IMG/VR virus record: IMGVR_UViG_3300025770_000870
Location: 62,001 to 126,000 of that record
Source: a virus
Length of the DNA stretch: 64,000 nt
Strand: one strand, 5' to 3'
Position numbers and translations under genes: made by a program. Positions 13,151 through 62,167 of the stretch are shown one piece after another (positions within the stretch are counted from its first letter, which is position 1; every line of letters starts with the position of its first letter). The notes beneath the pieces are model-generated. The model searched no databases and was not told where the DNA came from. It worked only from the letters and a program-made list of their open reading frames with translations.

Positions 13151-13500
13151 AAGATAATTGTATTAATTTTATATCCTCTTTCAAACATTTTATAAGCTCT
13201 CAGAAAATCTTCTTGTTTCGTAAATAAGCTTATTAAATAGTTTTCAAATTCTACACCAGTGTAACCATCCATGAGCGAGTTTCTAATTCCTCCTACCTTT
13301 ATAACAATACCTTCATAATCAAAGACAGAATGATCAGTGTCTATATCAATACTAAAATTACTCAAAAGGAATCCTATGTGTTTCGCTTTTTCTAAGTATT
13401 CTAATCCGATTTTATCATCATAATCACCACACATTATATCATTGAGGTTTTCACTTAAACCTCCAAAAGTTTTAAATGGTGTTTTATCCAAATGTTTCAT
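13147..13500 (-). CDS. Leader-like hypothetical protein
   Basis: 117 residues. N-terminus MKHLDKTPFKTFGGLSEN is a longer version of the leader. Body: KIGLEYLEKAKHIGFLLSN, YEGIVIKVGGIRNSLMDG, and a helical tail. No family recognised. Confidence 0.65.
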   Translation of the reverse strand: MKHLDKTPFKTFGGLSENLNDIMCGDYDDKIGLEYLEKAKHIGFLLSNFSIDIDTDHSVFDYEGIVIKVGGIRNSLMDGYTGVEFENYLISLFTKQEDFLRAYKMFERGYKINTIIF

Positions 13501-13610
13501 TTAATAAATTTACTGTGTATAATATAATCGACATACACATCAACCATATTAAAAACTTGTTAATATTTTCTTTATACTTTTTATACATATCACAAATATA
13601 AGGATTATTA

Positions 13611-13620
13611 TTAATATATA
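13611..13620 (+). promoter_or_regulatory. Late-type promoter box TTAATATATA
   Basis: Followed by ACAT and ATG 13625 (4 nt spacing). Heads the 13625-14472 pair; the second gene has no box. Confidence 0.6.
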
Positions 13621-13624
13621 ACAT

Positions 13625-14056
13625 ATGAAACATCTCAAAAGAATAAATGAGTTATATCTAACATCAGATGTGTCTAGTGTTATAGATGATATATTATTGG
13701 AGATTAATGATATACCTAAGTTTGTTGGTCTTAATTGGAATCATACGGATCGTTTGGGTCGGGCATCTGAACATAGTTTTTTGGTTATTATTAAGTTGAG
13801 TGAGGGTATAGAAGATGGTATGGATTATGGTGTTGGTTTAGATGAGGAAATAACAGAAACTATTAAAAGGTTATTAGAATTTATGACAAGCAATCGATAT
13901 GAATACTTGATGGAATTTGGAACAGATAACATACCACCTGGTACTTCAAAAAAAGAATTAAGTGATTATATTAGGAAGTTTGAATATAGTGAATTATCTG
14001 ATAATGATTTAACTATGTGGGTGGATGAATTTATAAGAATAACTTTTACAAAATGA
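13625..14056 (+). CDS. Leader-bearing small paralogue family protein
   Basis: 143 residues: leader MKHLKRINELYL, then VSSVIDDILLEINDIPKFVGL, the (I/V)DDIxLE(I/L)xD helix shared with proteins at 14053, 19301, 20489, 46044 and 51145. The rest alternates beta strands (HSFLVIIKLSEGI) and helices. Probably one of an expanded set of internal head proteins. Overlaps the next gene by 4 nt (ATGA). Confidence 0.72.
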   Translation: MKHLKRINELYLTSDVSSVIDDILLEINDIPKFVGLNWNHTDRLGRASEHSFLVIIKLSEGIEDGMDYGVGLDEEITETIKRLLEFMTSNRYEYLMEFGTDNIPPGTSKKELSDYIRKFEYSELSDNDLTMWVDEFIRITFTK

Positions 14057-20940: not shown

Positions 20941-21636
20941 ATGATAAATTGGCAAGGGTATGAGTGGTTGAGTGAAGAGAGATGGGGAGAATATCACCCA
21001 AATAAACCTATTGTTTGGTATGATCCATCAGCTATTGAGATAGACTCCCTCGATGTTCTAAAACTAAAATGTAGGTCTAATCCAAAAACTTTTGATGATA
21101 TTATCATCCCAATTGGTACCGGTTTGATATCTTGTACTACTGAGTTTGGATATGGTAAGTTTGAGATATGTGCTAAGTTACCAGATGGTCCTTTTGTTTG
21201 GCCAGCATTTTGGATGTGGTCTTTTGATTCTTGGCCACCAGAAATAGATGTATTTGAGGGTTATACTAATAAAAGGAATAGTTATTTTAATTGGAGTTTA
21301 CGTTCTTTACTTGGTAAATTCTGGGCAGTTAATTCGAATATACATCTTGGATCATCACCAGATAATTATATGATGGGTGCAAAATCTCATTGGTTGGGTT
21401 GGAAAAGTCCAAGTAAAGTTTTTAATAAGTATGGTGTAATTTGGACAGATAAAGAAATAAAAATATTATTTAATGATAGAGTTGTTAGGGAAATAAAAGA
21501 TGAAAAGGTTATAATCCAGTTACGGGGTAAGAAGATGAATGTTATAATAAATAATTCTATACAAGATGGTTATATGGAAACTGATAGACCGGCTCATGAA
21601 ATGATAGTTAAATATTTCACATACGAAAAATACTAA
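20941..21636 (+). CDS. GH16-family glycoside hydrolase
   Basis: 231 residues, a bare catalytic domain without signal peptide. The GH16 signature E-x-D-x-x-E is intact: PPEIDVFEG gives E101 (nucleophile), D103 and E106 (acid/base). Around it are the typical GYGKFEICAKLPDG and WPAFWMW strands. GH16 enzymes cleave beta-1,3/1,4-linked glucans, agars, carrageenans or related polymers; substrate cannot be read from sequence. Behind the leader-bearing 20489 gene in the same transcript, so probably late. Could be a capsule/matrix depolymerase or a lysis accessory. Confidence 0.88.
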   Translation: MINWQGYEWLSEERWGEYHPNKPIVWYDPSAIEIDSLDVLKLKCRSNPKTFDDIIIPIGTGLISCTTEFGYGKFEICAKLPDGPFVWPAFWMWSFDSWPPEIDVFEGYTNKRNSYFNWSLRSLLGKFWAVNSNIHLGSSPDNYMMGAKSHWLGWKSPSKVFNKYGVIWTDKEIKILFNDRVVREIKDEKVIIQLRGKKMNVIINNSIQDGYMETDRPAHEMIVKYFTYEKY

Positions 21637-24335: not shown

Positions 24336-25061
24336 TTACAAAATCGACTTTATCTCATTTACTTTATCCTCACTCAATAACTTAGACATAACTCTCCAAA
24401 ATATATCATCATTATCAGCCATTGATTCTGATAATCTAAAAATAGGAATTGGTTTTTCTATATTTTTTAATTCCATCTCAAAGATATAAAACAACATAAA
24501 TTCTTTAGATATCAAAATAACTTCTGGATTATCAACTAACAATTTATCATAATTATCACTTTTCATTATATCAAATGATGCTGGGTAAAAATGTTCGATA
24601 AGTCTGTTATATAAATGGAATCCAATAGATGCTTTAGTATCACCAAATAATTTAGTATTAGCTTCTATTCTAGATGTTCTATTTATAACAGTCCCAACAT
24701 AAGTATTTAATAAACCTGTTCCAACTTCCCATATGTTACCGGAGTCAGATCCTATACCAAATGATGCTTTTACTCCAGTGATACTAACAAAGTCATTACA
24801 TAATTTATTTAAAGCTCTGTGTGTTGATAATAGATAAGCGTATCCTTCAATATAATTTTTATCTGATAAAAATATTGTTAATACTCCATCACCGGTTGTA
24901 CCCATATGTATATCATCGGATATAATATTAGCTATATCTGATTGTATTTGATAATAAGACTCGATGAAATTTAAAAATTCATTGGATTGTTTATATTGAA
25001 AGTTTTCAAATAACCCACTAAAATTCCTGATATCTGTTAATATTGTAGTCGCTGATTTCAT
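24336..25061 (-). CDS. Class III nucleotidyl-cyclase-like protein
   Basis: 241 residues, a soluble stand-alone catalytic-type domain plus ~90-residue C-terminal extension. First strand TILTDIRNFSGLF carries D10, the hairpin MGTTGDGVLTIF carries D57 (47 apart, as for the two metal-binding Asp of class III cyclases), followed by GVKASFGIGSDSGNIW and TYVGTVINRTSRIEANTK, the usual G..VN...R.E block with N127 and R131. The base-recognition Lys and Asp of adenylate cyclases are not obvious, so the nucleotide made is unknown and loss of activity is possible. Host-type promoter box, so probably early. Might make, bind or mimic a cyclic nucleotide signal. Confidence 0.72.
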   Translation of the reverse strand: MKSATTILTDIRNFSGLFENFQYKQSNEFLNFIESYYQIQSDIANIISDDIHMGTTGDGVLTIFLSDKNYIEGYAYLLSTHRALNKLCNDFVSITGVKASFGIGSDSGNIWEVGTGLLNTYVGTVINRTSRIEANTKLFGDTKASIGFHLYNRLIEHFYPASFDIMKSDNYDKLLVDNPEVILISKEFMLFYIFEMELKNIEKPIPIFRLSESMADNDDIFWRVMSKLLSEDKVNEIKSIL

Positions 25062-25110: not shown

Positions 25111-25380
25111 TTATATTTTATTCCTAGATTTTTCTTCTTTACCACAAAAAAAACATTTAATATATCTTTTATCATCACTACCAACTATCCTTTTATCACA
25201 TTGACTTAGACACTTAGCCTGTGGTATAACTTCTTCTTTACCAACTAACTTAATTCTATTTGGTTTGAAGAATTTAATCACAACATCATCACCATTTTCA
25301 GAAACGACCTTACCTAATCTACCTCTCACAGTAACTATATCATCTTTTGTGAATTCTTCAAATAATTTTAAATGTAACAT
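25111..25380 (-). CDS. Leader-bearing zinc-finger-like protein
   Basis: 89 residues: leader MLHLKLFEEFTKDD, then an SH3/KOW-like stretch (DIVTVRGRLGKVVSENGDDVVIKF split over residues 13-36), then CLSQC and CFFCG metal ligands. Divergent from 25432 with facing AT-rich boxes between them. Confidence 0.7.
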   Translation of the reverse strand: MLHLKLFEEFTKDDIVTVRGRLGKVVSENGDDVVIKFFKPNRIKLVGKEEVIPQAKCLSQCDKRIVGSDDKRYIKCFFCGKEEKSRNKI

Positions 25381-25431: not shown

Positions 25432-25818
25432 ATGAAATATTTAAAGAAATTTTTCGAAGACCTTGAGGAAGCTCAAGAAGAAGTAGTACAGGCACAGAGT
25501 GAAGGTGATATGGATGCTTGTATTGAGGCTTGTAATAAATGTGCTGAGATATGTAAAAGGTGTGCTGATGAGTGTGCTAAGAATGATAATGAAGAGTGTG
25601 CTAAGAATTGTACAGAATGTGCTTTATTATGTGAATTATGTGCTACAGCTTGTGAGAGTGGATCAACTAGATCTAAAGATATCTGTGAGTTGTGTGTAGA
25701 TTGTTGTAAAGACTGTGTTGAGTCATGTGATGATTGTGGTTCAGAAACTTGTACAGAATGTTCAGCGGCTTGTAATGTTTGTATAGAAGAGTGTATGATG
25801 TGTCTTGAGTCCATGTAA
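25432..25818 (+). CDS. Leader-bearing Cys-rich four-helix protein, copper-storage (Csp/DUF326)-like
   Basis: 128 residues with 25 Cys, mostly as CxxC/CxxxC along helices: DACIEACNKCAEICKRC, EECAKNCTECALLCELC, ICELCVDCCKDCVESC, ETCTECSAACNVCIEEC. This pattern is typical of the DUF326/Csp four-helix bundles, which in bacteria line the bundle core with Cys and bind many Cu(I) ions. The N-terminus MKYLKKFFEDLEEAQ is the shared leader, not a Tat signal, so this copy is predicted to be packed into the capsid. Metal identity is inferred from the family. Confidence 0.8.
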   Translation: MKYLKKFFEDLEEAQEEVVQAQSEGDMDACIEACNKCAEICKRCADECAKNDNEECAKNCTECALLCELCATACESGSTRSKDICELCVDCCKDCVESCDDCGSETCTECSAACNVCIEECMMCLESM

Positions 25819-26011: not shown

Positions 26012-26626
26012 TTAATTTTTTATAATCCCTAAATCTTTTAATGCTAGATAACCAAAGTAAGCTCCGAATAGAGCCATAAATAAGAATCCTGACATAACAC
26101 TAACGATAATTAATAACACTGATGTTACTAAAGAAACTTTAGCCGCTATTGAAAATGCTTGTCCTCGGTTGATTCCTAATTTTCTACTTTTTATTGATAA
26201 TAAATCTCTTAAAATTCTACCACCATCCATTGGATATATTGGGAGAATGTTAAATACGAACAGTAATAGGTTAACCATCATAAATGAATCAATGAATGTG
26301 TTTGGATAAACAAAACTAATCAACATTCCAATGAAATATAGAGTTAGATTACTTATTGGACCTGCGGCCGTGATTGGAATAGAATCTCTCTCGTGTATAT
26401 TAGAATCAATAGAGGCAGATCCACTAAATAAACCAACCTCAATACCATATACTCTATAACCCCTTCTGTTAGCTACAAAAGCGTGTGCCATTTCATGCAA
26501 TATTACTGATATAAAAATTGAAACTGCAATCGGTATTGGTGTTATTATAAATATAATCAGGAAGAGTAGGTTCAGATTAACTGGTGTTCCCTGGAATGTA
26601 AATAACTTAAATATTAAATTTGTCAT
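26012..26626 (-). CDS. Site-2 protease (M50) family intramembrane metalloprotease
   Basis: 204 residues with about five hydrophobic segments. Zinc motif HEMAH (H44-E45-x-x-H48) in ISVILHEMAHAF, and the second motif NILPIYPMDGGRIL with D134. Intermediate ITAAGPISNLTLY matches the family G-P-x-x-N block. Family role: cleaves transmembrane substrates such as anti-sigma factors or signal peptide remnants. Host-type TATATTTG box ~34 nt upstream. No PDZ domain. A phage copy could alter host envelope stress signalling (inference). Confidence 0.9.
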   Translation of the reverse strand: MTNLIFKLFTFQGTPVNLNLLFLIIFIITPIPIAVSIFISVILHEMAHAFVANRRGYRVYGIEVGLFSGSASIDSNIHERDSIPITAAGPISNLTLYFIGMLISFVYPNTFIDSFMMVNLLLFVFNILPIYPMDGGRILRDLLSIKSRKLGINRGQAFSIAAKVSLVTSVLLIIVSVMSGFLFMALFGAYFGYLALKDLGIIKN

Positions 26627-28394: not shown

Positions 28395-29861
28395 ATGAAA
28401 TCTTACACAGAGTTTCTTTTAGAAAAAAAGGAAAATGATTTATTGGAATTACTCAATGAGGCTGTATTTATTATGGCACCGGAAATGAGTGATATAATAG
28501 ATGAGTTATATAATAGTGAAGAGGGTTATTCTAAAATAGCTAAATGTTTCTATATGTTAGATATGGAAGACATAGACACTCAGATAAGTTATCTAAACTT
28601 AGGAGATGATAATTCAACTATAACATTCCTAAAACCAGAAAAAGTTGATAAGATAAGAAAGGAAAAAGAATGGACAATAAATGATGTGTGGGTAAATGTC
28701 AAAGGTAATGGTATTAGAGTTGGGAGGTTAACTAGAAAGGTTATCGAACTTTATAATAAATCAAGAAGTGTAAAAACCACTAAAGCGACTAATTCTTCCA
28801 TAAGTGATGTTAAATTTACAGATCAAGAAATCGAGAAGTTTGTAAATGCTTACAAATCTCAATATGATTTTAATAATAATATAATGGATAATTTTAGTTT
28901 AGTATCAAGTGAAGATGATATTAAAGAAGCTTATTTAGAAGATAATTATTATAGTGGTGATGGTACACTTGGTGGTTCTTGTATGAGAAACGATGATGCT
29001 CAAAATTACCTTGAATTATATCATAATACATCAGTAAATCTATTGGTATTGAAATCAGCAAATAATAAAATTATGGGAAGATCTGTTATATGGACCCTAA
29101 GTGATGGTAGGAAATTTATGGATAGAACTTACACGAATAGAGATTCTGATGTTGATTTGTTTATAAAATATGCTCAAGAGAATAGATATATTTATAAAGC
29201 GGAACAAGACTCACGAGCCCACACTTATTTTTATGAACCTGGTGATAATTATAACAACAGCTCATTTATACAATTGGAATCAAAAGTTTATGAATTTAGT
29301 ATTGGTAATAATGGGGGCGAGGAATTTCCTTATATGGACACAATGAAATATCTTTACTGGGAAGAAGGTATTATACGCAATTATAAAGATAAATCAAATT
29401 ATTATATCAAATTGGAAGATGTTGATGGTTGGTGTGATTGTGCTGAATGTGATGGCGAAGGTAGAGAAGAATGTAATAAGTGTGATGGTGATGGTAACAA
29501 TACATGTGAAGATTGTCGTGGGTATGGGTATGAGGAATGTAGTAGATGTAATGGATATGGTGATAATATGTGTAAAGAATGTGATGGTGATGAGGAAGTT
29601 GAGTGTGAAGAATGTGATGGTGAAGGTTATATAGATGGGGAAACGTGTGGTACTTGTGGTGGATCCAGTAAGGTTACTTGTGTTACTTGTGATGGATATG
29701 GTACAGAAAATTGTTCAAATTGTGATGGTGATGGTAGAGAAGAATGTGGTGAGTGTAATAACAACGGAACAATTGAATGTGAGACTTGTGATGGTGATGG
29801 TGAAGGTGAATGTAGTAGATGTGGGGGATATTCTCATAGAGATTTTTTTGTTAGTAATTGA
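28395..29861 (+). CDS. Leader-bearing protein with DnaJ-like zinc-repeat C-terminus
   Basis: 488 residues. Leader MKSYTEFLLEKKEND is very close to the T4 internal-protein leader style. The central domain (~130-300) carries GGSCMRNDDAQNY, IMGRSVIWTLSDGRKFMDR and DSDVDLFIKYAQEN, shared with the 39078-40559 protein. The last ~140 residues hold about a dozen CxxC(x)G(x)G-type units (CAECDGEGREEC, CNKCDGDGNNTC), as in the DnaJ zinc-binding region but longer. No J domain. Likely a virion protein; the zinc region may hold unfolded partners or RNA (inference). Confidence 0.78.
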   Translation: MKSYTEFLLEKKENDLLELLNEAVFIMAPEMSDIIDELYNSEEGYSKIAKCFYMLDMEDIDTQISYLNLGDDNSTITFLKPEKVDKIRKEKEWTINDVWVNVKGNGIRVGRLTRKVIELYNKSRSVKTTKATNSSISDVKFTDQEIEKFVNAYKSQYDFNNNIMDNFSLVSSEDDIKEAYLEDNYYSGDGTLGGSCMRNDDAQNYLELYHNTSVNLLVLKSANNKIMGRSVIWTLSDGRKFMDRTYTNRDSDVDLFIKYAQENRYIYKAEQDSRAHTYFYEPGDNYNNSSFIQLESKVYEFSIGNNGGEEFPYMDTMKYLYWEEGIIRNYKDKSNYYIKLEDVDGWCDCAECDGEGREECNKCDGDGNNTCEDCRGYGYEECSRCNGYGDNMCKECDGDEEVECEECDGEGYIDGETCGTCGGSSKVTCVTCDGYGTENCSNCDGDGREECGECNNNGTIECETCDGDGEGECSRCGGYSHRDFFVSN

Positions 29862-33043: not shown

Positions 33044-33921
33044 AACACTTAACAACACATAACGAAGGTTTATTCAATTGGAGAAGAAATAGGGGTAAGG
33101 AACCTTTACATAGAGGATTCTCTAAAGATGATATGTACATATCCAGTGGTATTGGATATAAGAAAAGGATTGGTACATCACAATTAAAGGATTCTAATAC
33201 TTTTTACTCTATCCGTTTTCCTGATATGTCTTTAAATATGATAAAACAACACATAGTTTCTAAGAGAGATATTCATTCTAAAGGTATATTTGGTGACTTT
33301 GGTAGTTATAGAACAGACGGGCCTCGATATAGAGAAAAGAGTTGGGTTAAGAGCACATCTGTTTGGTATGATTGTGGGAATATATTTAACTCTCTTAGAA
33401 ATATATCAGATCAATGTGGGTATAGTTTGAATCAGTCTGTTCATGTTACATCTACACAAAAAGATACTAAGATAGTAGAAATAGTAAACTTTTCTTTTTA
33501 TAAATTAACTGGTATTTTATCAGATGGTATTGATGAATGTTTAACACTTTTATATAAGGTTGAAGAAGATGATAATTATTATCAGATAGGTCAGATAGAA
33601 AAAATAGAAGATAGTCCAGAAAGAAATATAGTGGATGAGGTTATAGAGGAAAATTTCTTGGAACTTATGGATGATGGTTTAATTACCTTTAAATCAGAGG
33701 AAATAAAAATAAAGGGTGTTGTTAATTATAAATGTTATGTTAAAGTATCAAAAGATATGACACCACAAGTTCTATTTAAGATATCAGAATGTTTATTAGT
33801 TGCTGCTCAAAGGTTGAATGATATTAACATTGATATTGATATAAAGTCTATGCAACATTCAGAAGATAGAAATACAAGAACTGGTACAACTGATATTGAG
33901 TTTACTGCTATTCAAAGATAA
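33040..33921 (+). CDS. Leader-bearing hypothetical protein
   Basis: 293 residues: leader MKHLTTHNEGLFNWRR. Contains SVWYDCGNIFNSLRNISDQC, a helix-strand unit like the small paralogue family, and IVEIVNFSFYKLTGILSDG. Last gene of the run; its end overlaps the convergent Nudix gene by 14 nt. Confidence 0.68.
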   Translation: MKHLTTHNEGLFNWRRNRGKEPLHRGFSKDDMYISSGIGYKKRIGTSQLKDSNTFYSIRFPDMSLNMIKQHIVSKRDIHSKGIFGDFGSYRTDGPRYREKSWVKSTSVWYDCGNIFNSLRNISDQCGYSLNQSVHVTSTQKDTKIVEIVNFSFYKLTGILSDGIDECLTLLYKVEEDDNYYQIGQIEKIEDSPERNIVDEVIEENFLELMDDGLITFKSEEIKIKGVVNYKCYVKVSKDMTPQVLFKISECLLVAAQRLNDINIDIDIKSMQHSEDRNTRTGTTDIEFTAIQR

Positions 33922-34453
33922 ATCCTAAATCTCTTAGTCTATCACCGTGGTCAAAAGCAAATCCATTTTTATTCATTTGATTTAATTCTTCAATCGAAAA
34001 CCATCTAGCTGATTGAGCATCATCCATACCGATTATATTGTTACCCATATCTCCAGGAATCTCAACAGTAAACGAATGAGCTTCTACCCATGATGTATCA
34101 CTATTTCTAGGATCTCTATTCTTATCATCAAAAACTCCTAATAGTTTGAATTTAGAATCTTCTATTTCCGATAGGTCTAATCCCGTCTCTTCTAGAATTT
34201 CTCTTTTACCAGCTTGTAACTCAGTCTCTAACCCAGGTTCCCATTCATTACCCCGATTAGCAGTAGTATCAACAAAACCACCAGGAATACTCCATTTATT
34301 TGGTTCTGCCTTAACAGACTCACCTCTTTGTATTAATAATACTTGTTGTGTACCATCAACTGTTCTAGTTACGATAGTATCAGCGGTTGGGTTTGGACCA
34401 ACATATCTTAATGATGGCTTGTCGAATGACTCAAATGTTTTTACAAATTTCAT
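33908..34453 (-). CDS. Leader-bearing Nudix hydrolase
   Basis: 181 residues. Leader MKFVKTFESFDK, then a Nudix fold with NKWSIPGGFVD and the Nudix box LETELQAGKREILEETGLDL (E76, R84-E85, E88-E89). An insertion separates the usual box Gly from E76. ADP-ribose/NADH-pyrophosphatase-like members share such insertions. Hydrolyses nucleoside diphosphates linked to another moiety. ATAATATATA box 4 nt upstream marks it as late. Inferred to be injected, perhaps to act on NAD- or ADP-ribose-derived signals or caps. Confidence 0.85.
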   Translation of the reverse strand: MKFVKTFESFDKPSLRYVGPNPTADTIVTRTVDGTQQVLLIQRGESVKAEPNKWSIPGGFVDTTANRGNEWEPGLETELQAGKREILEETGLDLSEIEDSKFKLLGVFDDKNRDPRNSDTSWVEAHSFTVEIPGDMGNNIIGMDDAQSARWFSIEELNQMNKNGFAFDHGDRLRDLGFIFE

Positions 34454-39077: not shown

Positions 39078-40559
39078 TTATTGACAATCATAACAAGGTC
39101 GTTCACCTCTCCCACTACAATCAGAACATTCTATGGTTGAATTACCATCACATTCAGTACAATCTACTTTACCCCTAGCATCACAATCCTCACAATCTAC
39201 ATCATGTTCTTCACCATCAGATCCTTCTTCTGTTATAGTTCCTCCACCATCACAATTTGAACAATTTTCTGTACCATATCCGTCACATTCTGGACAGTCT
39301 CTTTCACCACTACCACCACAATCATAACATTCCACTTCGCCTCCACCACCACATCCCTCACATCTATAATGTGAGCCTTCAGTATCTTCTAATATATAAC
39401 AATTACCACATTCATCTATTGATAGTGTACCATTATCTTTATTCCAATATTTCAAAGTGTCTAAGTAAGGATATTTTTCATATTCACCTGGTTTTATATC
39501 CACGATTATGTTCAAATTTGTATCATCACCATTAGGATCAATACAACTACCATTGGCGTTGGATGCGTTTCCACGTTTTGTATACCAACCATTCTCTTTA
39601 GCATAATCCTTAAATAATTGAACATCAGAATCATTGGCTGTGTATATTCTATCCATAAATCTTTTACCATCTCTCAATTTCCAAAGTAATGCTCTTCCTA
39701 AAATTTTATCTGTATCATCATCTGATTTATAAATAACCAAAGTACAAACTTCTGGATTAGAAATATAGATATCAAAAAATTCCTCATCAACAGCGGACAT
39801 ACAAGAACTACCTAATACGCCCCTCCTTGTCGAGTAATGTGAATAGTGATACCAATATCCTATTTTATCACCAGTAACTTCTTCAAATAGTGAAAATTTA
39901 TCATTAAATTTATCAATTGTTGCTTTATATAAATTAACAAATACTTCAATATCCTTATCAAGGAATTCTATATCATTAGTTTTAAGTAATGCTCTAATAG
40001 CTCTACCTACTTTAACTTCTTGTCTATTCGTTGACCAAATTTTATCCAATCTATCATCAACCTTTCTAATCTTTTCGGCATTTATGACCAATTCTGTACT
40101 TGGGAATTTAACATAAACAAATCTCTTACCCGATTCTTCCGAAACTGTTTCTTTAATAATTTCTCCTAGTTCATCATTTTCTGGTTTTATCAATTCCTCA
40201 CCAGGTGTGAATCCTAAAGCATCGAAAATAGTTTTATTTTTATATTCTCCTCCTTCATTTTTATTAAAAGTTAACCAACCACCATTATTACCAACAAATC
40301 TAACCTTAATATTTTCCTCACTCAGTATTTGTTGTGCTCTTCTATCTGGTATAAATGATACTTTATCATTTTTATCCATTACTATATCAAAATAATTAGA
40401 CCTAACGTCTAAATCTTTATTCTCAACATCTAAAAGTGATTTGGATACTGGGTTCTCTATTTTTGAAAGAGTGAGTCTAAATTTATCAGAATAAACGACA
40501 TCCGACTCCAATATTAACTCTAATGACTCATTTATGAAATCAAAATACTTTTTTAACAT
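39078..40559 (-). CDS. Leader-bearing protein with DnaJ-like zinc-repeat C-terminus (paralogue)
   Basis: 493 residues. Leader MLKKYFDFINESLEL. Central domain shares GSSCMSAVDEEFFDIY, KILGRALLWKLRDGKRFMDR and NDSDVQLFKDYAKENGW with the 28395 protein. C-terminal ~110 residues carry CxxCxGxG-type repeats (CEGCGGGGEVEC, CPECDGYGTENC, CSDCSGRGERPC). Divergent from 40598 with an AT-rich box between. Likely a virion protein. Confidence 0.78.
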   Translation of the reverse strand: MLKKYFDFINESLELILESDVVYSDKFRLTLSKIENPVSKSLLDVENKDLDVRSNYFDIVMDKNDKVSFIPDRRAQQILSEENIKVRFVGNNGGWLTFNKNEGGEYKNKTIFDALGFTPGEELIKPENDELGEIIKETVSEESGKRFVYVKFPSTELVINAEKIRKVDDRLDKIWSTNRQEVKVGRAIRALLKTNDIEFLDKDIEVFVNLYKATIDKFNDKFSLFEEVTGDKIGYWYHYSHYSTRRGVLGSSCMSAVDEEFFDIYISNPEVCTLVIYKSDDDTDKILGRALLWKLRDGKRFMDRIYTANDSDVQLFKDYAKENGWYTKRGNASNANGSCIDPNGDDTNLNIIVDIKPGEYEKYPYLDTLKYWNKDNGTLSIDECGNCYILEDTEGSHYRCEGCGGGGEVECYDCGGSGERDCPECDGYGTENCSNCDGGGTITEEGSDGEEHDVDCEDCDARGKVDCTECDGNSTIECSDCSGRGERPCYDCQ

Positions 40560-41603: not shown

Positions 41604-41858
41604 ATGAGATATCTGAGAACATACAAAAAGTTTACGGAAAATGCTTACGTAGCAGCATCCACTGCTGGTTCTGGTAGTGTAGTTGCTGCTCAACCTGGAT
41701 CCTTACCTGGTACATTCGGAACAGATGGGTCTGGTGATATTGGGTTTACCTTTAAGAAGGAGAAAAGAAAAAAAGGTGATGTTACCGAGGTTAGTGATTT
41801 GAGAGACCTAGAAGAGGTTGAAATTGAGAAGGTTGATGATATAAAAATCAAAAATTAA
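41604..41858 (+). CDS. Leader-bearing small protein
   Basis: 84 residues: leader MRYLRTYKKFTENAY, then Ala/Gly/Ser-rich linker (VAASTAGSGSVVAAQPGS), then acidic/basic tail (FKKEKRKKGDVTEVSDLRD). Low complexity; likely unstructured internal head protein. Confidence 0.68.
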   Translation: MRYLRTYKKFTENAYVAASTAGSGSVVAAQPGSLPGTFGTDGSGDIGFTFKKEKRKKGDVTEVSDLRDLEEVEIEKVDDIKIKN

Positions 41859-45261: not shown

Positions 45262-45704
45262 TTAAAATATCAATGGGTTCGGACCATGCTGGTTTTGAAT
45301 TAAAACAGGAAATTAAAAAATACCTTCACACACTTGGTAATAAAGTTGAAATAAGTGATAAGGGTTGTTTTGTTGAGGAAAGGTGTGACTACCCAGACTA
45401 TGCACATTTAGTTGCAGAAGATGTTGAAAAAGATATATGTGATTTTGGTATATTAGTTTGTGGATCAGGTAATGGTATAAATATGTCAGCTAATAAATGG
45501 GATGGTGTTAGATCTGCATTATGTTGGAACTCCGAAATAGCTAATATGGCGAGACTTCATAACGATGCTAATATACTAACACTACCTGGGAGATATATTT
45601 CGGTAGAAGACGCAATAGAGTGTGTGTGTGAGTTTATGAAGACCGAATTTGAAGGTGGTAGACACTCCGATAGAGTTGAAAAAATATCTATTTGTAGATC
45701 CTAA
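45258..45704 (+). CDS. rpiB: Ribose-5-phosphate isomerase B
   Basis: 148 residues, the family length. GSDHAGFELKQEIKKYL, YPDYAHLVAEDV, catalytic C68 in GILVCGSGNGINMSANK, ARLHNDANILTLPGRYI and GGRHSDRVEKI are all intact. Interconverts ribose-5-P and ribulose-5-P; an auxiliary metabolic gene that may raise ribose-5-P for nucleotide synthesis. Coupled to the Lys-rich protein gene. Confidence 0.95.
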   Translation: MIKISMGSDHAGFELKQEIKKYLHTLGNKVEISDKGCFVEERCDYPDYAHLVAEDVEKDICDFGILVCGSGNGINMSANKWDGVRSALCWNSEIANMARLHNDANILTLPGRYISVEDAIECVCEFMKTEFEGGRHSDRVEKISICRS

Positions 45705-45809
45705 AATTGGTAAAAATAAATTCGATGAAATTTATTAAAATTTCAAGGTTTTGGTATAAAGTGATAATATAAAGTTAATAGATATATTACAAAAAATAAC
45801 ATCTTACTT

Positions 45810-46043
45810 ATGAAAAATTTCGATAACAACCTTAGAGAATTTACTATTTCACATTTAAATGGAAATAAAATAGATGAAGATTATAAATTTCTTGTTGAGA
45901 AATTTATTTTTTATATGGATGCTTATTGTGCTGAAATGAAAACCACAGATAGTGAAGTTTTAAACAATGATAAGTTATATAAAACGGTATCTTCTCTTTT
46001 TAAGAGTGTTATTATGGAGAAGCAACTTAATATGGTTGTTTAA
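45810..46043 (+). CDS. Small hypothetical helical protein
   Basis: 77 residues, all-helical (FIFYMDAYCAEMKTTDSEVL). N-terminus MKNFDNNLREFTISHL is only faintly leader-like. No family recognised. Confidence 0.6.
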   Translation: MKNFDNNLREFTISHLNGNKIDEDYKFLVEKFIFYMDAYCAEMKTTDSEVLNNDKLYKTVSSLFKSVIMEKQLNMVV

Positions 46044-46445
46044 TTAAAAGTTTGTGTGTGCTACACCATCACCGAATGTAACATATTCCTTTTCTTTTTC
46101 TTTTGTAAAAGAAAGATATTTATCAATAGGATAATGTTCACGATCTTCGGTATCTTTTTCGAACCATTCTGATATTTTCATTAAGTCACGTATCCTCTCA
46201 ATTATATCTTTTAGGTTTGAAGAATCTGGTGTTTCCTTATATTCTTTCCATTGAATTCTAACAAATATTTGATCACTTTTGGGTAACATCTTACTAACAT
46301 TTATAGAAAATCCTTCGTCTTCCAATTCCATACAAATATCCTTTATCGTTTGTACCAAACAATCTGTTTCTTCGTTATCATATCCCATTCTACAAGGTTT
46401 GGAAACGTTTGAGTTAAATTCATTTATAGATTTTAGATATCTCAT
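46044..46445 (-). CDS. Leader-bearing small paralogue family protein
   Basis: 133 residues: leader MRYLKSINEFNSN, then LVQTIKDICMELEDEGFSINV (family signature), IFVRIQWKEYKET, and a helical segment IIERIRDLMKISEWF. Overlaps the upstream gene by 4 nt. Confidence 0.72.
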   Translation of the reverse strand: MRYLKSINEFNSNVSKPCRMGYDNEETDCLVQTIKDICMELEDEGFSINVSKMLPKSDQIFVRIQWKEYKETPDSSNLKDIIERIRDLMKISEWFEKDTEDREHYPIDKYLSFTKEKEKEYVTFGDGVAHTNF

Positions 46446-46963
46446 TTTTCGTAAGGAGCAAATATGTGTTCCCAGGGGATAATATCTTCTGTGTGATACA
46501 TAGCAATATCAAATCTAATACCATGTTCACCATCACCTTGAAATACCGAGGACTCTAAAGAAAAATTAAGTATTTTGAATTTATACCCAAAATCTTTTAT
46601 TTTAATTAACGAATCAGAAAACTCATTAAAGAATTCAATTGTACTAGACATTTGTTTATCATTTACATCTCTAATTGATGATGATAAATCATCAAATCTT
46701 AATCTAAGTGTATATCCTTTATAAAGAGGTTTATCTATGTAATTTATTCTATCTCTAACTTCAAAGTTTTCATCAACTAAAGTATGTGTTGAGTTTTTAA
46801 TTCCTATAATTTTACCACCTAAATCAACCAATTCTAAGAAAAATTCTTTTAACTCACCATCTCTATTATATTCAGATCTCATGATAGCTAATTCAAACCA
46901 ACCATCTCCCTCGCCCGATTCGTTTATCATCTCTACATTATTATAATTCTTTAAGTATTTCAT
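46442..46963 (-). CDS. Leader-bearing paralogue family protein
   Basis: 173 residues: leader MKYLKNYNNVEMINES, then LKEFFLELVDLGGKIIGI (signature variant), LRLRFDDLSSSIRDV and IRFDIAMYH. ATAATATATA box 4 nt upstream. Operon with 46044. Confidence 0.7.
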   Translation of the reverse strand: MKYLKNYNNVEMINESGEGDGWFELAIMRSEYNRDGELKEFFLELVDLGGKIIGIKNSTHTLVDENFEVRDRINYIDKPLYKGYTLRLRFDDLSSSIRDVNDKQMSSTIEFFNEFSDSLIKIKDFGYKFKILNFSLESSVFQGDGEHGIRFDIAMYHTEDIIPWEHIFAPYEK

Positions 46964-49093: not shown

Positions 49094-51106
49094 TTATTTA
49101 TTATTGTTATTGAATTTCTCAAATTTAGCGATAATCTTTTTATTTGTATTATCGATAGTCATTAAGCTTTTCCTATCCGTTTTCATTCCTTTTCCAGCAC
49201 CGGCCCTAATAAATTCTTCTTTTGTTACTGTTGATGGTGTACCATCGTTATTAACTAATTGATATTCGAAATTTTCATTAGTATCTTGTCCTAATAACTT
49301 AACACCTTTGGTATCATAATCAACATCCTCTCCAGATCTAGCAGTATCTATCTTTTCTTTAAGAGCATTTACAAAATCTCTAGCTATCTTCTTTAATACA
49401 TCAACATATTTATCTGTATCATAAGCTATTTTCATCATAGCTTTATTATATTTTAATAGATTAAGACCAGCGATATTTGTAATTGATGGGTGACCTCCAC
49501 TATTTCTTATTACAATTTCCCATACTGGAATTTTGAGATTATTTAATAGTGTTTTTTGTTCGTAAGATAAATCTTTATGTAAAACATTCATAGCTTCTTC
49601 TAATCCATCTTCTTTAATATCAACATTAAGAATAGTTCTACCCTCTTTCTTAAATACACAATCAGAATAAAAAGCTTCTAAATCAGAATATTTAAATCCA
49701 ACACCTTCGTATGAATCACCTTCATCCTTCTTCATTTTTTTCCAATCTTGTGAATTTTCAAATTCATTCTTAATTGATTCTAATGATATATAATACTTAC
49801 TCATCATTGGTTCATACTTAGCTAATACTTCTTTAGAGATTTCTCCTAAGTTAATATCTTTAAGTATTTTCTCCTTAAATGGATTACAAGAAACTTGTAC
49901 AAGACCCATTGGCCAAACAATACAGATAAATTCCGCATCCGGGAAATTCTTAAATGGTGTATATCTATCATAAGAACCTGGTTTAATCATACTACCACCT
50001 CCATATTGCATAAGTATTTTATAATCTTCATCAATATGAATACCCTTTATAGAACTCTTACCATTGAGAGCTTTTCTTCCTAACCAAGTAACGCTATAAA
50101 CATTTTTCGGTTTATCTTCAATATAATTTTTATCAAATAATCTATCAACATACTTAACATACTCTTCGTTAGATATTCCTAGCTTCTTAGCTAATTCAAC
50201 ATCTTGAGAGGCTGGCATTCTGTGTATATTTTTTAGGATGCTTAATTCGGTTCTACCAATTTCCATAACATCACCACTTTCACTTTCAACGAATCCGTAA
50301 TCCTTCATTCTCTCGATATAGTTAGTAAGGTTTGTTTTTATTTCTTCTGGTGTTGCTAATCTACCAAGCTTATCGCTTGTTTTTGCATTATTAATATAAT
50401 GTCTAATATTGTTAAACATTGAGTATAAACTCGCAGTTGAGTCTAATAATAAACACTCAAGTATATTCTTATTTATGTGATCTCTTTTACCATCTAATGA
50501 TTTAACAGTTATTCTTTTATTCTTATAAGCTAATAATAATCTATTAACCACTAATCCCATCATAAATCTATTCTTTTGTGGTGTTTCTGCCTTTTCATAT
50601 TTGAATATAGAATTTTGAACATCTTCTGGCTTAATATTATTTCTCAAGAAATCTGCTGAATCAATTGTTTGAATCATTTTTATATCTTGTGCCGTGAATA
50701 TATCTGAATATGAAACTTCACCTGATATAATCTCAACATTTGATCTAGCTGATTTGAAATATGTTGATTCTGTGTCCTCAGCACCAACTTGTTTATCATG
50801 ATGATCCGATTGTATATGGAACATTGGTTTACCGTGTGCGAAATCAACTAAAACTTTTAATGTATCAGGTCTTCCGTTTTTAACAGCATACTCTAATCCA
50901 CCATATTGAATGATATGACAATCAACTGTTTCTATTTGATAGTAATTTTTTAAGAATACACTCATAGCTAATGCTGATGTTACTCCATCTAAATCTTTGT
51001 GAAAGTATATCTCACATTCTTTATATCCTTTAGTTATAGCTTTTATGTTTCTTAAACCTACTTCCTCGTTTACAAACTCAGTATATTTTTTCATATTATT
51101 TTTCAT
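49094..51106 (-). CDS. Leader-bearing DHH-family phosphoesterase with winged-helix insert
   Basis: 670 residues. Leader MKKYTEFVNEE (from Met5) closely resembles the T4 internal-protein leader. DHH motifs: YFHKDLDGVTSALAM (H36, D38, D40), VLVDFAHG (D88), QSDHHDKQ (D101-H102-H103); DHHA1-like NSGGHPSITNIAG at ~537. Between them a winged-helix segment (~300-350: LSILKNIHRMPASQDVELAK). Family members cleave nanoRNA, pAp or cyclic di-/oligonucleotides, and include RecJ. About twice the size of NrnA/GdpP cores. Predicted head-packaged; could destroy defence second messengers or oligoribonucleotides on entry (inference). Confidence 0.82.
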   Translation of the reverse strand: MKNNMKKYTEFVNEEVGLRNIKAITKGYKECEIYFHKDLDGVTSALAMSVFLKNYYQIETVDCHIIQYGGLEYAVKNGRPDTLKVLVDFAHGKPMFHIQSDHHDKQVGAEDTESTYFKSARSNVEIISGEVSYSDIFTAQDIKMIQTIDSADFLRNNIKPEDVQNSIFKYEKAETPQKNRFMMGLVVNRLLLAYKNKRITVKSLDGKRDHINKNILECLLLDSTASLYSMFNNIRHYINNAKTSDKLGRLATPEEIKTNLTNYIERMKDYGFVESESGDVMEIGRTELSILKNIHRMPASQDVELAKKLGISNEEYVKYVDRLFDKNYIEDKPKNVYSVTWLGRKALNGKSSIKGIHIDEDYKILMQYGGGSMIKPGSYDRYTPFKNFPDAEFICIVWPMGLVQVSCNPFKEKILKDINLGEISKEVLAKYEPMMSKYYISLESIKNEFENSQDWKKMKKDEGDSYEGVGFKYSDLEAFYSDCVFKKEGRTILNVDIKEDGLEEAMNVLHKDLSYEQKTLLNNLKIPVWEIVIRNSGGHPSITNIAGLNLLKYNKAMMKIAYDTDKYVDVLKKIARDFVNALKEKIDTARSGEDVDYDTKGVKLLGQDTNENFEYQLVNNDGTPSTVTKEEFIRAGAGKGMKTDRKSLMTIDNTNKKIIAKFEKFNNNNK

Positions 51107-60310: not shown

Positions 60311-62167
60311 TTATCTTCTTTGACCGCCATTAGAGAATCCACCACCAACTGCACCACCCAATGAGTCTCCTAAAAACCCAACTAAATCACCCCTTACATC
60401 ATAGAAAAATCTTTGTGACACATTACTACCAGCATTCAATAATGAACCTTGTTCTCCTGGGCCAAGCTCATATATATTTTTGGGTGGTGGTATCGTACCT
60501 CCCTGTAATGATATTGCTGCTTTATTTAATGTTCTGGCTAATAATTGTGCTTTTGTGTTTATAACACCTTGTAATTCTTTTTTAGCAGATGATACCAATC
60601 TATCCTTAGCTTTTTTTGCCGCAGCTTTAGCCTTTCCTTTAGATGCTTTCTTATCTCCTTCTAAACTTTCCCCATCACTCGGTGGATCATCAGCGGTTAG
60701 GACTTCAGGAGCCAGTATAATTTCTGTTGTTCCTAATTTATTTATACTTTTTAAAACAAATGGTGATTCAACACCATTTTCTCTTAACTTATTTTTACCA
60801 ACTGTGAAGAAATTTGGTATTGATGTGTCTCCAACTGATTGTGTTCCTCTTGCTCCTGGGTTACCAATTTTCCAAATAGCACCACTATCATAACCAACAT
60901 AGCTACCAAAACCATCACCGGTTGGTACAAACTTTTCAAATTTAACGGCTGAGTATTTATAATCAAATGTTACTGGTGTTGTGCCTTGCGCAGCAATACT
61001 ACCCATGTCTATCTGAGCTGGGTGAGGTAGTTGGTCAAAAAAGAATTGACATTCTCTTAGAGAATAAACATATCTAGATACATTATCCTTTATTATTTCT
61101 AAATTACCAGTCTCTACTGCTTTTCTAACCCTGTTAAAATTTCTACATTCCGAAACTACTATATCACAATTAAATCTCAATAGATTCTCAGGAATCATTC
61201 CCTTACCATTTGGTTTAGACCAATATAATAATTTATAAAGATGTGTTAAAGTACCAACACTCAAAGAAACATCTTCCAAAAAGTCTAATGTTATGACATC
61301 TTTTCTATAATCAGTAATATATTTTAATGTTCCTGGTTTATTACTCTCTACTAAGAAGTTTAGACCTGTTATTTTTTGTATATAATAACCCATATAAGCT
61401 TTTTTACCCAATTGAAAAATTGATTTCGAGTTATCAAAACTAGCTGAGTTTACACCACTATTACTCATTGTTGTTTGTTCTGGATCAATCCTTAATGTTC
61501 CTTTTGTTTTGAAAAATTTCAAAAATTGTTGCTTAAAATCCTCATATACTGGTATCCTAGCGGCCATTTCATTTATTCCCTTATATTGATTTAAAAAATC
61601 TATCACAGATCCGTTTAATAATGGTGATGATATACCATCAATTATTAAATCAAATCCATACATAACCGGATCATTATTTTCGAATGGTGTTGCTTTGAAT
61701 TGACTCAATCTTAAATCAGAAGCACCTTCTGAATTTTCAATTGGTGTTAACCCATCAATTATTTGTAAACCGTGTTTAAAATAATCCGTTTTATTATCAT
61801 CAAATATCATATAATGATCTCTCATGGAATAAGGGATATCTTCTAAATCTGCACTTGATTTCGGTAAATCTTTACTTTCGTTAAATCTATCCGTAGTATC
61901 TAAATCAATTAAACCATTTGGTGTTATTTTCTGACCTAACCAATCTTCATATTCATATTGTCCATATTTAATTTTAACAGCTTCTTGCTGCTTCCCAAAA
62001 ACAGACAATGATGGTTGTATCAAAACTGGTGGTAAGAATCCAGAAGTTTTTGAAAAATCGGGATTTACTAATGTTTGTGGCCAAGGATTACTCACAAAAG
62101 CAATAATACTTGATGCTGAGTTAGATATTTTCTCTTTTAAATCTGTGATTTTGTCGAATACTCCCAT
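60311..62167 (-). CDS. Large baseplate / tail-tube-initiator-like virion protein
   Basis: 618 residues. DPVMYGFDLIIDGISSPLLN, LTHLYKLLYWSKPNGKGMIP and LLRFNCDIVVSECRNFNRVR with FFFDQLPHPAQIDMG are patterns of structural proteins that sit beside the gp5 hub in this phage group. Lys/Ala-rich linker (KASKGKAKAAAKKAK) and Gly-rich C-terminus (GFLGDSLGGAVGGGFSNGG). Late box TTAATATATA upstream. Role by neighbourhood. Confidence 0.68.
   Translation of the reverse strand: MGVFDKITDLKEKISNSASSIIAFVSNPWPQTLVNPDFSKTSGFLPPVLIQPSLSVFGKQQEAVKIKYGQYEYEDWLGQKITPNGLIDLDTTDRFNESKDLPKSSADLEDIPYSMRDHYMIFDDNKTDYFKHGLQIIDGLTPIENSEGASDLRLSQFKATPFENNDPVMYGFDLIIDGISSPLLNGSVIDFLNQYKGINEMAARIPVYEDFKQQFLKFFKTKGTLRIDPEQTTMSNSGVNSASFDNSKSIFQLGKKAYMGYYIQKITGLNFLVESNKPGTLKYITDYRKDVITLDFLEDVSLSVGTLTHLYKLLYWSKPNGKGMIPENLLRFNCDIVVSECRNFNRVRKAVETGNLEIIKDNVSRYVYSLRECQFFFDQLPHPAQIDMGSIAAQGTTPVTFDYKYSAVKFEKFVPTGDGFGSYVGYDSGAIWKIGNPGARGTQSVGDTSIPNFFTVGKNKLRENGVESPFVLKSINKLGTTEIILAPEVLTADDPPSDGESLEGDKKASKGKAKAAAKKAKDRLVSSAKKELQGVINTKAQLLARTLNKAAISLQGGTIPPPKNIYELGPGEQGSLLNAGSNVSQRFFYDVRGDLVGFLGDSLGGAVGGGFSNGGQRR

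Follow-up and report, generated by a model that had tools for sequence, protein, structure and literature searches.

The 64,000-nucleotide stretch of viral DNA analyzed here (the window; positions 62001–126000 of a 241,918-bp IMG/VR record) contains a complete gene, at 25432..25818 on the + strand, in which a short leader precedes a domain (residues 27–128) that we assign with high confidence to the Csp3/DUF326 copper-storage family. Taken as a whole, the evidence moderately favors an account in which this protein, hereafter Csp, is a Csp3-type Cu(I) sink that is tagged by its leader, packed into the phage head and probably injected.

The Csp gene, its cysteine core and its origin

The Csp ORF runs from ATG to TAA and encodes 128 amino acids, including 25 Cys and no His. 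Cys makes up 1.03% of residues over the ORFs of the record, which gives a binomial chance of 2e-24 for 25 Cys in 128 residues; the runner-up ORF in the record reaches 7.6%. The Cys residues follow a repeated C-x3-C-x2-C spacing and are found at positions 30, 34, 37, 41, 44 and 48 in helix 1; 56, 60, 63, 67, 70 and 74 in helix 2; 85, 88, (91), 92, 95, 99 and 102 in helix 3; and 107, 110, 114, 117, 121 and 124 in helix 4. The count and the CxxC/CxxxC spacing given in the initial annotation are thereby borne out by the translation and the Cys positions. As judged by these positions, the helix faces and an alignment with cellular Csp3s, the Cys core (residues 30–124; 25519..25803, + strand) comprises four helices, each contributing six Cys in register, and the additional C91, i.e., a layout of four times six plus one. 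Within each predicted helix the Cys residues share a single face (permutation p 0.0001 to 0.0013).

Csp scores 21.1 bits against PF03860 (DUF326), above the Pfam cut-off of 20.4, and its best match among PDB sequences is BsCsp3 (E 3.8e-8), aligned from residue 27 onward. A single-sequence model gave a leader helix and four more helices, and matched S. lividans Ccsp only weakly. Modeling with 30 cellular Csps as alignment gave pLDDT 96 and pTM 0.83; the top 43 PDB matches of this model are copper-storage or DUF326-type chains, most at about 1.3–2 Å, and TM values against solved Csps are 0.7–0.9. The alignment itself contains Csps, so that the fold agreement and the sequence match are not independent lines of evidence. 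A four-helix bundle with Csp topology is nevertheless strongly predicted, with good backing from the sequence, the modeled fold and the kept family Cys. The copper-storage-like bundle claimed in the initial annotation, which named structure prediction against known Csps as a check, thus agrees with the DUF326 and BsCsp3 matches, with the pLDDT 96 model and its Csp/DUF326 neighbors in the PDB, and with the retention of every family Cys. Other identities were considered and rejected: a chance low-complexity ORF is ruled out by selection (see below) and the family match, a metallothionein by the folded bundle, and a zinc-ribbon or DnaJ-like protein by the helical character and the absence of CxxCxGxG.

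In a 31-row alignment, Csp retains every one of the 19 family Cys and has six more, at positions 60, 70, 74, 91, 102 and 124. Cys102 occupies the position of the mouth His, which is His in nearly all cellular relatives, and the His-containing mouth motif of classical Csp3s is absent from Csp. Since RkCsp3 also lacks this motif, the missing His excludes the classical Csp3 subgroup, not the family; the non-classical RkCsp3 binds 18 Cu(I) without it (PMC10155185). Characterized Csp3s contain 16–19 Cys and bind 18–20 Cu(I) (PMC10155185). Among cellular Csp loci, 75 of 80 have 19 Cys, in a sample biased by the consensus query, and a Csp match was found in 25 of 396 sampled Bacteroidota genomes, where the top count is 22 Cys.

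An ortholog with 80.5% identity is present, in syntenic position, in the 634,780-bp uncultured phage LR745206.1, which shares the neighbors at 24336–25061, 25111–25380 (a leader protein) and 26012–26626 (an M50 peptidase). Residues 1–17 and 24 of the 25 Cys are identical between the two proteins. Synonymous sites differ at 70% (pS 0.70) and nonsynonymous sites at 11%, corresponding to a dN/dS of about 0.057 with synonymous sites near saturation. The Csp gene is real and under purifying selection. Two further observations concern genes of the window: a GH16 glycosyl hydrolase (20941–21636, + strand), whose LR745206.1 copy is well conserved, and the shared ORF at 24336–25061 (− strand), which by eye resembles a nucleotide-cyclase catalytic domain (TTILTDIRNFSGL...), is 76% identical in LR745206.1 and has no Pfam match at 0.01.

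The LR745206.1 ortholog is the only close relative found, giving two phage Csp sequences in all. No Csp was detected in the other huge phages of the collection searched, in PAU, or in 50 contigs, mostly fragments, with the major capsid protein (MCP) in common; in the record, about 113 kb separate the MCP from the Csp gene. Searches of IMG/VR by protein or by two-row alignment returned no close relatives, with search patterns that consisted partly of leader or low-information stretches, and the genes adjoining Csp, used as bait, also yielded none. Csp matches in Acinetobacter "phage" entries were rejected as likely host DNA in partial records of 2–2.8 kb. In the paper library searched, we came across no description of a phage-encoded copper-storage protein.

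In a tree built on 111 columns, the phage pair is sister to a Bacteroidota Csp with support of 94/82 and a long stem, and the phage gene was probably taken from a Bacteroidota cell. This placement agrees with the Bacteroidetes hosts predicted for phage genomes over 634 kb (PMC7162821).

The leader and its relation to head proteins

The leader comprises residues 1–26 (MKYLKKFFEDLEEAQEEVVQAQSEGD; 25432..25509, + strand), with a core motif at residues 1–9, and has no counterpart in 30 cellular Csps. It is predicted to continue helix 1. A Tat or Sec signal peptide was rejected by eye, the leader being charged and without a hydrophobic core. The initial annotation had called the leader shared, and it is: the pattern M[KRNE]x[hydrophobic]xx[F/Y/I] is found at 47 of 341 ORF starts vs 4 of 1216 internal Met, and on 55 of 341 ORFs (about 16%) once nearby starts are allowed. 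Among these 55 leaders, 49 have L or I at position 4 and 52 have F or Y at position 7. The portal, MCP and tail ORFs that were read lack the leader. Leader-bearing enzymes include a NUDIX hydrolase (33908–34453, − strand), a DHH-type protein (49094–51106, − strand) and a phage lysozyme (3929–4759, + strand); these would be candidate injected enzymes, or else they indicate that leader use extends beyond the capsid.

Several lines of evidence connect the leader to T4-type head assembly. In T4, leader sequences read MKTYQEFIAEA, and in IPIII residues 4 and 7 govern targeting and residues 8 and 10 processing (PMC9026906); L4 and F7 of Csp coincide with the targeting positions. Some leaders in the phage genome read YTEFLLE or YTEFVNE, linking the MKYLKKFFE and T4-like forms, and the closest in the window to T4 MKTYQEFIAE is MKSYTEFLLE, on a protein with 27 Cys and CxxCxGxG repeats (28395..29861, + strand). 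The record encodes a Gp23-like MCP that scores above the cut-off, and the ORF just before it carries an S77-like protease domain (E 6e-5, below the cut-off). In this protease-scaffold ORF of about 716 aa, outside the window (record positions 198213–200354; loci L012 and L013), the S77-like domain is followed by ten YxEYxxE repeats. These YSEYIAE-like repeats are near-identical to T4 YQEFIAE and are kept in related contigs; the capsid tag may act as a mimic of the scaffold.

Processing sites can also be proposed. Cleavage by the head protease is possible after E9 (FFE) or E13 (LEE/A, the slash marking the junction); by eye, LEE/A at residues 11–14 fits the [L/I]xE processing site, and a related motif occurs within residues 6–20 in 23 of 55 leaders vs 6.5 in shuffles. 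An 84-aa ORF (41604..41858, + strand) combines a leader ending in FTE with an MCP-like mature N-terminus: FTE/NAYVAASTAGSGSVVAAQP resembles INE/NAYANASNVSGMGAVVAAQP of the MCP. This sequence comparison supports the leader as a putative cleavable head propeptide.

Phage PAU, which has a related MCP and a Sphingobacterium host (PMC3738902), offers independent support. Its depositors annotated gp70, gp142, gp154, gp199 and gp270 as "internal capsid protein", on a basis they do not state. An MK[TSG][LI]xxLYE start is found in four of these five and in the annotated scaffold gp152, whereas of the 283 other ORFs only 15 have it (p 7e-5, with gp270, whose third residue is Gly, counted by eye). The annotations are probably not leader-based, because most leader genes carry none. 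N-terminal sequencing of the PAU MCP showed that about 65 residues are lost (PMC5646251), and the cleavage point lies within one residue of LME/N.

The statement in the initial annotation that Csp is tagged for the capsid thus has indirect support, which comes from the T4 targeting positions, the PAU leaders, the protease-scaffold ORF with its repeats, and the MCP-like junction. From these comparisons, we consider it likely that the leader is a capsid-targeting tag.

A separate observation concerns three Cys-rich proteins of 472–493 aa, at 28395–29861 (+ strand), 39078–40559 (− strand) and record positions 45334–46752, with T4-like starts (YTEFLLE, YFDFINE and YNEFILE); the first is the protein with DnaJ-like CxxCxGxG repeats described above. 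The three are possible packaged zinc proteins.

Proposed role of Csp and competing explanations

We propose that a phage lineage joined a capsid-targeting leader to a captured cytosolic Csp3. In the resulting protein, the bundle core is strongly predicted to be lined by 24 Cys, or by 25 in the copy from the window, and by analogy with Csp3 chemistry it would bind about one Cu(I) per Cys, so that each monomer would take up about 24 Cu(I). By analogy with T4, PAU and the head genes of the phage itself, the leader would dock Csp to the scaffold inside the prohead and might then be cut by the head protease after E9 or E13. Mature Csp would then remain with the DNA and enter the host upon infection; given the apparent packing tag on Csp, the phage may bring a copper sponge with it into the infected cell. 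The likeliest job would be that of an immediate Cu(I) sink and thiol buffer that shields phage DNA on entry, along with the early phage enzymes, against copper met in the host or its environment. T4 internal proteins number about 360 copies per virion (PMC9026906), and if T4-like copy numbers hold, a virion could contain some 8,600 Cu(I) sites.

That copper is the natural ligand is, in our judgment, probable. Csp3s expressed in E. coli protect against copper, and BsCsp3 provides an endospore laccase with copper (PMC10155185, PMC9484137). Also encoded in the record is a metal-binding protein with an HMA domain and an apparent signal peptide (record positions 13364–13699, − strand; L003), a domain match typical of copper chaperones; this second metal-handling gene hints at metal handling by the phage, and LR745206.1 gave no HMA match at the threshold applied. 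Counting against the copper account, neither the record nor LR745206.1 contains a multicopper oxidase (PF07732).

The main competitor keeps the Csp3-type store and places it, unpackaged, in the infected cell, the leader being a general N-terminal signal for translation, localization or another assembly; we regard this as rather unlikely. Native Csp3s do work in the cytosol, and the leader, on about 16% of ORFs including the lysozyme, NUDIX and DHH proteins, is more widespread than internal proteins alone would predict. Being so common, and present also on lysozyme, it might mark more than internal proteins. However, the head is indicated by the T4 targeting positions, by the leaders of PAU internal capsid proteins, by the repeats of the scaffold and by the leader–MCP junction, and the portal, MCP and tail ORFs that were read lack the leader.

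Less probable still is a packaged thiol-rich bundle with a role other than copper storage, either as a redox buffer for the head, or for injected enzymes, or as a store of another thiophilic metal, e.g., zinc. Replacement of the near-invariant mouth His of cellular Csp3s by Cys would suit such a role, as would the nearby genes for further leader-bearing Cys-rich proteins, but all 19 Csp core Cys are in register, and RkCsp3 still binds its 18 Cu(I) without the His motif (PMC10155185). A packaged copper grabber might also serve as a weapon that, once injected, strips host cuproenzymes or a copper-based host response. The Cu(I) affinities of Csp3s, about 1e17 to 8e17 per molar (PMC10155185), and the precedent of T4 internal proteins as injected counter-defence factors (PMC9391042) are compatible with this, whereas a T4-like complement of about 360 copies per virion would bind only some thousands of ions. 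Moreover, we know of no copper-dependent phage defence, and we consider the weapon very unlikely.

Returning to the packaged Cu(I) sink, our confidence is evenly balanced on the broader proposition that a bacterial Csp3 was recruited by a giant phage, expanded to 24–25 Cys and tagged for the capsid, so that the virion injects its own metal store. If this is true, each infection would begin with the delivery of a Cu(I) sink or a Cu(I) dose, and Csp is one of perhaps more than 100 packaged proteins. Packaging of Csp would extend the injected phage proteins beyond counter-defence to the protection of metal or redox balance, and copper at infection would become a factor that can be tested for huge phages. 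By means of the leader, likely internal proteins can be listed easily in Mahaphage-type genomes; we found no virion proteomics for such genomes and no isolate of this clade.

Comparison with known systems

Phage Csp resembles the Csp3s (BsCsp3, 5fig/6wkt; MtCsp3; SlCsp3/Ccsp; RkCsp3; DUF326, PF03860) in its predicted four-helix bundle, its 19 family Cys in register and its lack of an export signal. It differs from the characterized members in having 24–25 rather than 16–19 Cys, and from Csp3s in carrying Cys in place of the mouth His, no His at all and a 26-residue leader. The nearest cellular protein in the tree (94/82) is the Bacteroidota Csp L171 (genome G305), which shares the six-Cys helix 2 and a GSTxS loop, but has 21 Cys, retains two His and lacks a leader.

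In T4, the unrelated proteins IPI, IPII and IPIII (MKTYQEFIAE) likewise share a short N-terminal MKx-hydrophobic-xx-aromatic leader followed by Glu, and the T4 Gp23 capsid protein and gp21-type protease have counterparts in the phage genome. The leaders themselves differ (MKTYQEFIAE vs MKYLKKFFE), and T4 has far fewer leader genes than the Csp phage, where packaging is a proposal. The MK[TSG][LI]xxLYE leader of PAU gp142, gp154, gp199 and gp270 is similar to that of the Csp phage, although the sequence differs, and the two phages have in common a related MCP and a Bacteroidota host.
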